From the NCBI RefSeq assembly GCF_005405905.1, contig NZ_BJHU01000030.1:62001-126000 (forward strand): a stretch of DNA of 64,000 nucleotides, given 5' to 3'. Each line of letters starts with the position of its first letter. The first letter of the stretch is position 1. The stretch is from Acidovorax sp. NB1. GTDB lineage: Bacteria > Pseudomonadota > Gammaproteobacteria > Burkholderiales > Burkholderiaceae_C. Under the pieces are notes generated by a model that did not search any database, was not told the DNA's origin, and saw nothing but the letters and a program-made list of their open reading frames with translations. Made by a program: the position numbers and the translations under genes. Below, piece after piece: positions 36,758 through 40,643 of this stretch.

Positions 36758-38044
36758 CTACCCAGCCACGTTGCACTCTCGGCGCAGCAGCGCCAGCGCG
36801 TCGTGCATCTGGTAGTCCATGTCGCTGAGCAAGGTTTTCTCGGCGTCCTGCACAAAGCTGGCCCACAGCGCAAGGTAGTCCTCTTGGTGCACCCCGGGCG
36901 CATGGGCGCGGATGAAGTCGGCCGCCAGCGCGGGTTGCAGGCCGGATTTGCGCGCCTTGCGCACCAGGCTGGCGGCGGTTTTCTCCGTCAGCAAGGTTTT
37001 CTTGGGCACACCCGCCGCCAGGCACAGGAACAGCGTGAGCAACGAATGTTCGTCGTCGTTGCCGTCGGTGGTCTTGAGCCAGGTCTTACTGGCGGGCTGC
37101 GGGGGTTCGGCGTCGTCTTCCAGCGCGTCCAGGCTGTGGTGCAGGGCCTCGACCTCGGCCAGCGGGTCGTCCAGCAGGAAGTAGCGCGCACGAAACGCCG
37201 CCATGGGCCGCAGCAGGGTGCGCAGCGGCGTGGTGGATTGCAGCAGCTTGGGCAGGTCGGCCAGCACGGCGCTGCAGTGCGCCGCCACGGCATCGTGCAG
37301 CTCTGCGGGCAGCCCTGGCGGCAGGCGCAGTGCCGTGGGCACGGGCAACTTTTTCTTGCGCAGGCCCGTCACCAGTTTTTCAAACGCCGGTGCGCTGGGC
37401 CATTCGCCCGCCGCCATGGCCTGCGGGGCCAGGGCCTGCATCAGCAGGCCAGTGCGGACCACGGCCTCGGCGTCGGCCCCGGCAGATTCCAGCTCGTCGG
37501 TGTCCAGGTCATATTGCGTGGCCAGCCACTCGGCAGCCGCAATCGACTGGGCGATCTGGCTGCGCCGTGCCAGCTCGGCGCGGTAGTCGGCATGGCTGCG
37601 CAGCGACCAGGCGGCCAGCAGCGGGGTTTCGGCATCGGCATACCCGGCCATGCCGAAGTTGCTGCTCTCGGGCATGGCGATCAGCCGCTTGAGCATGTCC
37701 GAGCCGCCCTTGGAGCGCGACAAGAAGGAGTTGTCGCGCAGCGAGACCGCCGCCTCGGCCAGGTCGCCGCCTGTGGTCTCCAACAGGTACAGGCTGATCA
37801 GGTTGACCATGCGGTCCCGCGCTTTTTCCAGCTCGGGCCGCAGAAACTCGCTGCCAAAGTAGCGCGCAATCTGCACCATGCCCTTGGGCGCATCGGTGTG
37901 GATGGCCGCGAGCCGGTCTGCACCCAGGATGCCATGCTGCACGCCGTACACCAGCGCCTTTTCAAAGAAAGGACGCGCGTCGTGGAGTTGCAGGGCATTG
38001 GCGCCCGTTGGCGAATCAGAAGCAGTCGTAGGGGGCAAGGTCAT
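36758..38044 (-). CDS. Uncharacterised 428-residue protein, last gene of the J-domain cluster
   Basis: I do not recognise a family. It has no signal peptide or membrane segment, is rich in helix-forming Ala/Leu/Glu, and includes KALVYGVQHGILGADRLAAI, LISLYLLETTGGDLAEAAVSL and DEHSLLTLFLCLAAGVPKKTLLTEKTA. There is an acidic spacer near residue 310 (LEDDAEPPQ). GGAG stands 9 bases before the ATG at 38044. A REP-like element lies in the 163-base gap to the preceding gene, so it may be expressed less than, or separately from, the first three genes. Confidence 0.65.
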   Translation of the reverse strand: MTLPPTTASDSPTGANALQLHDARPFFEKALVYGVQHGILGADRLAAIHTDAPKGMVQIARYFGSEFLRPELEKARDRMVNLISLYLLETTGGDLAEAAVSLRDNSFLSRSKGGSDMLKRLIAMPESSNFGMAGYADAETPLLAAWSLRSHADYRAELARRSQIAQSIAAAEWLATQYDLDTDELESAGADAEAVVRTGLLMQALAPQAMAAGEWPSAPAFEKLVTGLRKKKLPVPTALRLPPGLPAELHDAVAAHCSAVLADLPKLLQSTTPLRTLLRPMAAFRARYFLLDDPLAEVEALHHSLDALEDDAEPPQPASKTWLKTTDGNDDEHSLLTLFLCLAAGVPKKTLLTEKTAASLVRKARKSGLQPALAADFIRAHAPGVHQEDYLALWASFVQDAEKTLLSDMDYQMHDALALLRRECNVAG

Positions 38045-38110
38045 GCAGGTACTCCATCGCGTTGCTCACGCTCTTTGCAACTGTCGCGGCCCAAGCCAGG
38101 ACCGCCGAGC

Positions 38111-38212
38111 AAGGGCCGCCCCGCAGCAAGGGCGGTGTCCCCCTTCCCGAATCACGCAGTGATTCGAGAGAAGGGGGAAGGCGCGCAGCGCCACAGGGGG
38201 ATGTTCTCTAGA
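38111..38212 (+). repeat. REP-like triple-hairpin element, full copy
   Basis: Three hairpins follow each other: CCGCCC/GGGCGG around a CGCAGCAA loop, then CCCCCTT with an inner CGAATCAC-GCA-GTGATTCG stem closing on AAGGGGG, then GGCGC-GCA-GCGCC followed by CAGGGGGA. The last part recurs at 48947-48993. It stands between two minus-strand genes of the J-domain cluster and may act on mRNA stability or partial termination. Confidence 0.7.
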
Positions 38213-38972
38213 TCGCGGATTCTTCGTCAGAGGCGCGGGCCGCGGGCGTGGCCTTGCCCCGGTCGGTCTCGCTGGTCTCGAACTTGCCGTCGTCCTCTTC
38301 GGCGGGGGCATCGTCGCCCTCCTCCAGGCCCAGGTCAAACGCACGCGCCTTGGCGCGCAGCACCAGCAGCATTTCGATGAACAGGTCGCGGCATTCGTAG
38401 CGCAGCAGCCAGGCCATCTGCATCCAGTCGCGGTCGGCCACTTCGTCCTGGTCCACACGCGGCTGCACATAGCCGGAGGCGAGCAGCTCGTCGTCCGTCA
38501 GCGTCACGCCATAGTCTTCCACCGCGTCGAACGTGCCGGTGCGGGCAAAGGCTTCGATGCGGCTCCACTTCTCGGCAAAGTAGTTGGCCAGGGCCTCGGC
38601 GCCGCCCTCCAGGTCGCCAATCGCGGTGAGGAACTCAACCGGGTCGGCATCGTCGCGAAACACCACGGCGTTGACCATGTTGCGCAGGTGGGTGTGGGTG
38701 AGGTCCTTATACTGCTTCTCCAGCACCATGGCGCGCGCAAACTGCTCGGGCGTGACCAGCATGTTGACCACGGACGCCTTGGAGTCGTCGTACTCGCGCA
38801 TCACGGCCAGGATGTCCTTGGGCGCGAGCTGGTCCAGCACCACCATCAGCGCGCCGTCGCCGTCGGTGTCGGCCAGCTCGGCCAGGGCCGACTCGGCGCC
38901 CACGATGTCACCGGCCGCGATCAGGCTGGTGGTCTTGGTGATCAGGGCGAGATGTTGGTTGCTGCTGCTCAT
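38208..38972 (-). CDS. Uncharacterised 254-residue acidic protein of the J-domain cluster
   Basis: No known family was recognised. It is soluble by composition and strongly acidic, with a disordered acidic C-terminal tail (GLEEGDDAPAEEDDGKFETSE). A folded core appears to run to about residue 205, with LITKTTSLIAAGDIVGAESALAELADTD and LAPKDILAVMREYDD. The C-terminal stop lies at the edge of the REP-like element. It begins 6 bases after orf191, and the two must be cotranscribed. The first half looks like a helical-repeat regulator, but that is a guess. Confidence 0.65.
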   Translation of the reverse strand: MSSSNQHLALITKTTSLIAAGDIVGAESALAELADTDGDGALMVVLDQLAPKDILAVMREYDDSKASVVNMLVTPEQFARAMVLEKQYKDLTHTHLRNMVNAVVFRDDADPVEFLTAIGDLEGGAEALANYFAEKWSRIEAFARTGTFDAVEDYGVTLTDDELLASGYVQPRVDQDEVADRDWMQMAWLLRYECRDLFIEMLLVLRAKARAFDLGLEEGDDAPAEEDDGKFETSETDRGKATPAARASDEESAI

Positions 38973-39554: not shown

Positions 39555-39865
39555 AGGGGAGAGGAAGGAGAAGACGTAGAGGAAGAAGAAAGAATGCGCG
39601 CGCTGTAGGCCTGCCAGATCTCTTGTGCGGTCTGCAGCGGGTCGTCCAGCAGGTTGCGGCGGCGGTTGTCGTCGTAGGCCTGGCGTGCTTCGTCATCCGA
39701 CAGCACCTCGTAGGCTTTTTGCACCTGGGCAAAACGCTGTGCAGCGTCCGGCGCGTCGTTGCGGTCGGGGTGGTAGAACGAGGCCTTCTGGCGAAAGGCC
39801 TTCTTGATCTCGGCCAGCGACGCATTGGCCGCCAGCCCGAGGGCGGCGTAGTGGTCTGCAGTCAT
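39551..39865 (-). CDS. Short J-domain (DnaJ-like) co-chaperone
   Basis: This 104-residue protein is little more than a J domain: HYAALGLAANASLAEIKKAF, the HPD motif at residues 32-34 (FYHPDRND) and YEVLSDDEARQAYDD. After it come about 35 residues including LLDDPLQTAQEIWQAY and a Ser-rich end. Zinc-finger and substrate domains of DnaJ are missing, so it should recruit a DnaK/Hsp70 to a specific client, perhaps a product of the next three genes. It starts the cluster; its stop overlaps the next start. Confidence 0.88.
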   Translation of the reverse strand: MTADHYAALGLAANASLAEIKKAFRQKASFYHPDRNDAPDAAQRFAQVQKAYEVLSDDEARQAYDDNRRRNLLDDPLQTAQEIWQAYSARILSSSSTSSPSSPL

Positions 39866-39929
39866 GGAAAGGTTGGTGGTGTGAAAGCCGGTAGCGGTGG
39901 CGCTGGCCGCAGGGGCCTGCGGCCGTGTA

Positions 39930-40643
39930 TCAGCCGCCCAGGCTCACAAACACGTTCTGCACGTCGTCGTTGCCGTCGATGGCAGCCAGGAAGCTCTCCA
40001 CCTCTTCGAGCTGCTCGGCCGTCAGATTGGCGGGGTTGACCGGGTTCTTGGGCTTGTAGCCCAGCTTGACCGACAGCACGTTGAAACCGTGTGCGGGCAG
40101 CGCACGGCTCACCAGGTCCAGTTCAGCGGGGTCGGTCCAAAAGGTGGTGGTGCCCTCTTCATCGCCTGGCTCGCAGTCTTGCGCGCCCGCTTCAATGGCG
40201 GCTTCTTCAGGGTCAGCGCCTGCCACGGCAGGCTCGGCCTCGATCATGCCGACGTGGTCGAAATCCCATGCCACCGAGCCCGAGGTGCCCAACTGGCCCT
40301 TGCGGAACAGCACGCGCATCTCAGGCGCCGTGCGTTTGACGTTGTCGGTGAGGCATTCCACCATCACCGCCACCTGATGCGGTGCATATCCTTCGTAGAT
40401 CACGCGCTCGTAGTTCACGGCGTCGGCCCCGGTGCCAGAGCCCTTCTTGATGGCGCGCTCCAGCGTGTCCTTGGGCATCGATGCCTTGCGGGCCTGCTCG
40501 ACCACCAGGCGCAGGCGCGAGTTGCTGGCCGGGTCGGCGCCGCCGCGTGCGGCCACGGTGATTTCCTTGACCAGCTTGCCAAACAGCTTGCCCTTGGCAT
40601 CGGCTACCAGAGCCTTGCCTTTTGCTTTCCACTGCGCGCCCAT
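39930..40643 (-). CDS. yeeN: YeeN, YebC-family paralogue
   Basis: This 237-residue protein begins MGAQWKAKGKALVADAKGK, the YeeN form of the YebC N terminus, then FGKLVKEITVAARGGADPAS, RAIKKGSGTGADAVNYERV and YEGYAPHQVAVMVECLTDN. YebC-family proteins act on the ribosome or as regulators. It is distinct from the YebC at 14645. It is 64 bases upstream of the J-domain gene on the same strand, so cotranscription is possible. The ATG at 40643 gives the typical length. Confidence 0.93.
   Translation of the reverse strand: MGAQWKAKGKALVADAKGKLFGKLVKEITVAARGGADPASNSRLRLVVEQARKASMPKDTLERAIKKGSGTGADAVNYERVIYEGYAPHQVAVMVECLTDNVKRTAPEMRVLFRKGQLGTSGSVAWDFDHVGMIEAEPAVAGADPEEAAIEAGAQDCEPGDEEGTTTFWTDPAELDLVSRALPAHGFNVLSVKLGYKPKNPVNPANLTAEQLEEVESFLAAIDGNDDVQNVFVSLGG

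Follow-up and report, generated by a model that had tools for sequence, protein, structure and literature searches.

What is a gene for a J-domain protein doing in one cluster with three genes for uncharacterised proteins, next to a yeeN-like gene, in Acidovorax sp. NB1? The cluster lies in the window analysed here, which is the whole stretch of 64,000 nucleotides and to which all positions below refer. The preliminary description of this DNA knew no named system of such make-up. We found, from the gene order and from the profile homology of the three companion proteins, that the cluster is of the atcJABC type; very probably it is a divergent, betaproteobacterial branch of that operon.

According to excerpts of the published account (PMC6715715), the atcJABC genes of Shewanella oneidensis (SO_1850, SO_1849, SO_1848 and SO_1846) encode a DnaK co-chaperone network for growth in the cold. 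AtcJ is a J protein of 94 residues and binds AtcC through the last 21 of them; AtcC in turn binds AtcB, and loss of atcJ, atcB or atcC dramatically reduces cold growth. The same excerpts report that the atc genes are syntenic in 80 Shewanella, Moritella and Aeromonas genomes, and that AtcJ and AtcC bind with an affinity of 7 nM, which the authors judged a poor fit to a transient client interaction. AtcB contacts RNA polymerase, according to a meeting report that is likewise excerpted (PMC7871303).

The corresponding genes of the window are minus-strand open reading frames (ORFs):

39551-39865, minus strand: atcJ homologue, a class C J-domain protein of 104 residues with intact HPD (Pfam DnaJ, NF050028, P-x7-W motif)
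38979-39554, minus strand: atcA homologue (orf191), 191 residues, GTG start, acidic tail (NF047888, profile-profile comparison)
38208-38972, minus strand: atcB homologue (orf254), 254 residues, acidic C-terminal tail ending in DEESAI (profile-profile comparison, bridging loci L175-L177, locus L130)
36758-38044, minus strand: atcC homologue (orf428), 428 residues, N-terminal half corresponding to the curated-type AtcC of about 297 residues, C-terminal half extra (NF047890, profile-profile comparison)

The coordinates agree with the preliminary description of five ORFs (these four and the yeeN-like gene) on one strand, the J protein having an intact HPD. That description also had an ATGA overlap and a 6-base gap joining the two acidic genes. 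The 6-base gap between orf191 and orf254 is there, but the overlap lies between the J gene and orf191, whose GTG start overlaps the J gene end by 4 bases (GTGA). The spacing between orf254 and orf428 is 163 bases. The acidic tails ascribed to orf191 and orf254 are borne out by net charge, which is -20 for orf191 (-15 of it in the last 60 residues) and -29 for orf254 (-9 in the last 60). No sigma-70 promoter or terminator pattern was found within window 36500-40900.

The J protein matches Pfam DnaJ at 84 bits over its J-domain (residues 4-65) and the AtcJ model NF050028 at 58 bits over residues 4-87, with general DnaJ models scoring higher. It had been described as bare, but about 38 residues follow the J-domain, and these include PLQTAQEIW, a P-x7-W. 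We take P-x7-W to be the AtcC-docking motif of AtcJ. The atcJABC operon calls for a short J protein that carries HPD and is extended only briefly at its C-terminus, and such a protein is what we found here. P-x7-W occurs in all 80 near relatives (the named loci, defined below) and in all 20 loci fetched from the Shewanella-type order.

The homology of the other three proteins to AtcA, AtcB and AtcC was approached with curated models and with alignments. In an NCBIfam scan of the window proteins, orf428 matched the AtcC model NF047890 at E 0.0042 over residues 21-149, and orf191 matched the AtcA model NF047888 at E 0.0061. When aligned relatives were compared with the same models, 23 of the 36 rows of the orf191 alignment A3 (window included) matched AtcA at E<=0.1 (best 2.2e-8), as did 34 of 36 rows of the orf428 alignment A2 with AtcC (best 1.3e-5) and 24 of 32 rows of the atcC alignment A4 (best 1.4e-5). 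For AtcB, a single row of the 28 in the orf254 alignment matched at E<=1 (E 0.08), and a distant Burkholderiales member, L130, matched NF047889 at E 1e-4. Alignments A1 and A2 held 27 and 35 of 120 listed relatives, each with the window protein; A3 held the window and 35 loci (L084 without its tail), A4 held 31 of 34 closed atcC ORFs, A5 held 29 of 35 atcB ORFs (L085 was omitted as truncated, as were five near ones), and A6-A11 held 13 to 15 hand-picked loci each, picked for clear ORF ends and spread.

Profile-profile comparison was the more telling. With hhalign, the betaproteobacterial (beta) profiles matched the Shewanella-type (curated-type) profiles at E 1.1e-8 for A/A, 3e-5 for B/B and 3e-6 for C/C, the last match spanning columns 15-207 of 426; as controls, six mismatched A/B/C pairs gave E 0.057 to 0.64. 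A divergent AtcB found at loci L175-L177 bridges the branches, at 7.4e-7 to beta AtcB and 5e-17 to curated-type AtcB. The lengths of J, A and B agree between the beta and Shewanella-type sets, and acidity is common to both, with median net charges of -23 and -23 for A and of -29 and -36 for B. The window proteins are divergent homologues, and their NCBIfam scores place them outside the curated equivalogs NF050028, NF047888, NF047889 and NF047890.

The gene order was followed outward from the window. A profile scan of genome contigs with the orf254 alignment confirmed 367 relatives, and the best 80 loci were kept as the named loci. In 77 of the 80, a single strand carries J, A, B and C in that order; the contigs of the other three (L034, L062 and L067) end after B. 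The J/A overlap is 4 bases in 51 of the 80, in a table where a few ORFs are shortened by automatic start choice or contig end (e.g. atcB of L085 and J of L087). Acidovorax contigs supply all of the ten best named orf254 matches (96-99% identity), and a genus survey found orf254 in 38 of 40 genomes.

Beyond the genus, a draw of 399 Burkholderiales genomes gave 22 matches to orf254, namely the window's own genome, 16 further strong matches, four partial ones from one genus, and G520 at E 0.004. We fetched 20 of these loci, leaving out the own genome and G520. Among the 16 same-type loci (L115-L130), 13 have J-A-B-C in order and three are cut by contig ends; L115 comes from the same family as the window genome. 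Ten of the 12 same-family genomes listed in this draw (own included) had no orf254 match, and the system is therefore patchy.

A class-wide draw searched with the curated AtcC model gave 0 of 274, and one searched with the beta AtcB alignment gave 1 of 369, this match being the window's own genome; these draws probably came up empty for want of genomes of a suitable kind. SeqA, which we take to be a marker for the order of Shewanella, was then found in 0/56, 1/43 (28.9 bits) and 8/150 across draws, and the next draw was centred on G178. AtcB was present in 38 of 295 genomes of this SeqA-carrying order, in 34 of them above the NF047889 cut-off, and 20 of the 38 loci were fetched. All 17 fetched loci with AtcB above that cut-off (the Shewanella-type set) have J-A-B-C in order; at L167 the AtcC gene was assigned from its position alone, and AtcB from its place in the genome search. 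Two of the 17 were scanned in full, and all four proteins of each scored above the NCBIfam Atc cut-offs. From SeqA and the curated scores we infer that this set comes from gammaproteobacteria of the Shewanella-Moritella-Aeromonas kind.

Because the four proteins are kept in the same order across so many genomes, the cluster is not a product of chance. The J protein and its three companions had been proposed to form one unit, a proposal to be given up if the order were not kept in relatives; the order held in the named loci, in the order-wide draw and in the Shewanella-type set, and the four-gene unit stands.

Some operons depart from this pattern. One Burkholderiales genus has, in four genomes (L131-L134), J, an acidic ORF, B and C in order. 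The second gene encodes 169-177 residues, counted from a common start MKxVHPEF, and matches neither AtcA profile (E 0.066 and 0.14). Against the beta profiles, B scores E 1e-12 and C 2e-12, and C also matches Shewanella-type AtcC at 1.3e-8; this AtcC has only about 290 residues, and the J tail has the W without the P. Within the Shewanella-type order, L175-L177 carry a shorter, divergent Atc operon (A 153, B 215-217 and C 306 residues). Finally, at L119, L128, L129 and L130 the docking tryptophan of the J protein is replaced by S, A, A and F, respectively; atcA and atcB follow in each, and so does atcC except at L119, where the contig ends. Such lineages offer a natural test of the contact between AtcJ and AtcC that has been published.

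The beta branch differs from the Shewanella type in two of its proteins. AtcC has a median length of 416 residues in A4 (beta) vs 297 in A8, amounting to about 200 extra C-terminal residues in the sampled beta branch. AtcB of the near beta branch ends in a nearly invariant TDRGKATPAAR-SDEESAI; Shewanella-type AtcB ends in DEYAEVDDMFSFLD, unlike the beta tail. Predicted models, of low to moderate confidence, make AtcB mostly helical and AtcC all-helical. Known domains gave little further guidance. No Pfam domain scored above cut-off in window A, B or C, and Pfam searches of 14 AtcC and 14 AtcB members gave weak matches only (best E 0.0075; DUF6890 in 5 of the 14 AtcB), with no Pfam match better than E 0.0079 to the whole AtcC of 14 diverse members. 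PF26699 is annotated for all 120 listed orf428 relatives and had no match to the window proteins in the Pfam scan. Among solved structures, single-sequence searches reached E 0.65 (A), 0.01 (B) and 0.12 (C) at best, and profiles of beta AtcC and of curated-type AtcC, AtcB and AtcA found none at E<=0.1. A defence system was considered as well and rejected: PADLOC had no match for four of the five proteins, and orf254 matched at chance level (E 0.035).

Several observations weigh against assigning the cluster to atcJABC. First, all four window proteins fall below the curated NCBIfam cut-offs (J 58 of 150 bits, A 16 of 200, C 17 of 370), and for B, whose cut-off is 440 bits, the NCBIfam scan of orf254 with NF047889 gave no match at E<=1. 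Second, the profile matches have weak points: the AtcC homology is restricted to the N-terminal half, the B/B match by itself has an hhalign probability of 73.5, L175-L177 are undetectable as matched pairs with beta for A (E 0.004) and C (0.019), and B of L131-L134 is undetectable with curated-type AtcB (E 0.06). Third, the strict P-x7-W is found in only 11 of the 19 J proteins of the order-wide draw; among the remaining tails three have S or A for W, one has F, and four have W without P. Fourth, orf254 is missing from two of the 40 genomes in the genus survey, of which one is listed as 100% complete and the other is in 1080 contigs. Fifth, the AtcB and AtcC models have pLDDT (predicted local distance difference test) scores of 70.9 and 65.4, and a PDB fold search with both returned no match at E<=0.001.

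If the cluster is an atcJABC operon, its working can be sketched by homology with S. oneidensis, which supplies both the binding chain and the cold role. The J-domain of AtcJ would activate DnaK, stimulating ATP hydrolysis through the HPD loop, and the C-terminal tail with P-x7-W would dock on AtcC, most likely on the N-terminal half that is common with the Shewanella type. AtcC would bind AtcB, so that DnaK would be held at AtcB or at whatever AtcB contacts, possibly RNA polymerase. The AtcJ-AtcC-AtcB chain would in this way support growth at low temperature, with AtcA as a presumed accessory protein.

The alternative that survives best accepts the homology and doubts the role: the operon would serve a different or additional process in betaproteobacteria, cold growth would not be its main role, and the extra AtcC half and the new AtcB tail would attach DnaK elsewhere. 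The extra AtcC residues, the AtcB tail that is conserved yet unlike that of the Shewanella type, and the scores below the curated cut-offs all point this way, as does the S. oneidensis operon, which is expressed constitutively between 7 and 37 C and for which another role was raised as a possibility in the excerpted account (PMC6715715). However, the docking motif between J and C, the gene order and the gene set are kept in the near branch, which suggests an unchanged core mechanism, and we hold this alternative to be possible but on the unlikely side. With the same reserve we put forward a more specific form, that the Atc network has been re-targeted in this Burkholderiales branch, where a conserved second helical half of AtcC and a nearly invariant acidic AtcB tail might bring DnaK to an additional or different partner, and that the operon has been remodelled more widely. 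Such wider remodelling is proposed because L131-L134 have an unrelated-looking second gene and a J tail without the P, and because AtcJ has lost its tryptophan in lineages that retain A and B, as well as C if the contig extends that far.

The preliminary description had instead suggested that the three unknown proteins are clients or parts of one assembly, perhaps connected to ribosome rescue by the neighbouring gene, which is:

39930-40643, minus strand: YebC/TACO1-family (YeeN-like) gene, 237 residues (NF009044 and Pfam domains), outside the conserved unit

Its product has PF20772 and PF01709 above cut-off, as expected of the YebC/TACO1 family. It scores 256 bits against NF009044 (cut-off 196) and about 217-218 bits against the YebC equivalog NF001030 (cut-off 243), a combination that we take to indicate the YeeN rather than the YebC subgroup. 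The window holds a second YebC/TACO1 paralogue at 14648-15361, a full YebC with 349 bits against NF001030.

A link to translation could be read from the position of this gene, directly upstream on the same strand, and from the action of the YebC/TACO1 family on ribosomes stalled at proline stretches, as given in excerpts of two papers (PMC12234827, PMC11990639). However, a yebC-family gene lies upstream of J in just over half of the named loci (41 of 80; among the 39 without it, L069, L080 and L087 have <200 bases upstream of J, too little to show such a gene). The loci with the gene are mostly from Acidovorax, Simplicispira, Xylophilus and further relatives, with none among the Paracidovorax, Rhodoferax and Polaromonas loci. 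In the order-wide draw yebC is adjacent at 1 of 20 loci (L115), one locus, L126, starting inside the operon. Between yebC and J the named loci have anything from 8 to 216 bases, which speaks against the link, and the separate full YebC elsewhere in the window also speaks against the link. Across the loci compared, adjacency of yeeN to atcJ is lineage-specific; the ribosome-rescue link is therefore unsupported, and we consider this reading very improbable.

Least credible of all is that unrelated proteins merely stand in atcJABC order, by analogy and not homology: taken one by one, the sequences score poorly against the models (E 0.004-0.006, with nothing for AtcB) and helical, charge-biased proteins can give spurious scores, but the matched pairs outscore the six mismatched pairs from the same alignments by 3 to 7 orders of magnitude, are co-linear, and in AtcB are bridged by the intermediate set L175-L177.

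In the loci compared, no other neighbour is a conserved part of the unit. A fifth conserved neighbour was considered in the upstream plus-strand gene and rejected, a relative being present in 34 of the 80 loci. Clustering of upstream genes gave no cluster above 6 of the 23 full-length loci without yebC, and downstream none above 22 of 53 loci. Downstream of atcC on the same strand, at 35368-36576, we observed a gene for a GGDEF-type protein (GGEEF motif) with a relative in 29 of the 80 loci; it is no fixed partner. The space between atcB and atcC is:

38045-38207, no strand: atcB-atcC gap, 163 bases, with a GC-rich imperfect inverted repeat; a repetitive element, no conserved part of the system

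The GC-rich hairpin element itself (window 38131-38192) also occurs at loci among L013-L056. Allowing <=2 mismatches, we counted 25 copies of its core across the 80 related loci (885,579 bases in all); the B-C gap holds 14 copies, and six lie ~80-160 bases upstream of the match to atcB. The element appears to be a repetitive extragenic palindromic (REP)-like repeat that inserts between genes of Acidovorax.

Reading the cluster as a divergent atcJABC operon gives a name and a testable mechanism to conserved "hypothetical proteins" that escape the curated models in Acidovorax and elsewhere in the Burkholderiales. The deep split of the beta from the Shewanella type also sorts the parts: constant are the J-domain, the docking tail (in most lineages), the N-terminal half of AtcC and the N-terminal part of AtcB. 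Separating these from the variable parts helps with the question of what the Atc proteins bring DnaK to.

Among known systems, HscB-IscU resembles the window in having a dedicated J protein in one operon with its partner, a comparison made in the excerpted account (PMC6715715); it differs in that the five window genes examined include no Fe-S scaffold and no dedicated Hsp70 gene. With atcJABC of S. oneidensis the window shares the four-gene order, an HPD-bearing J protein that is short, as is its C-terminal extension, homologues of AtcA, AtcB and AtcC, and acidic A and B proteins (acidity as seen in curated-type relatives). The window differs in several respects: the similarity of its proteins is near or below the limit of single-sequence detection, its AtcC has 428 residues vs about 297, its AtcB tail is another, its J and A genes overlap by 4 bases whereas the three-gene part lies 120 bp downstream of atcJ in S. 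oneidensis, and yeeN stands upstream. Among the matches listed for AtcJ and AtcB/AtcC, the literature contained no Acidovorax operon, AtcC extension or J-B-C variant, though these matches did not cover the likeliest source, a later paper about conservation in environmental proteobacteria (Weber et al. 2023, doi 10.1111/1462-2920.16478). Weber et al. 2023 reportedly described, in beta- and gammaproteobacteria, AtcJ homologues that carry P-x7-W and are encoded beside homologues of atcA, atcB and atcC. The window locus fits that description in both its P-x7-W and its atcA, atcB and atcC genes. The window operon is a member of a named system, whose beta branch has reportedly been outlined before.

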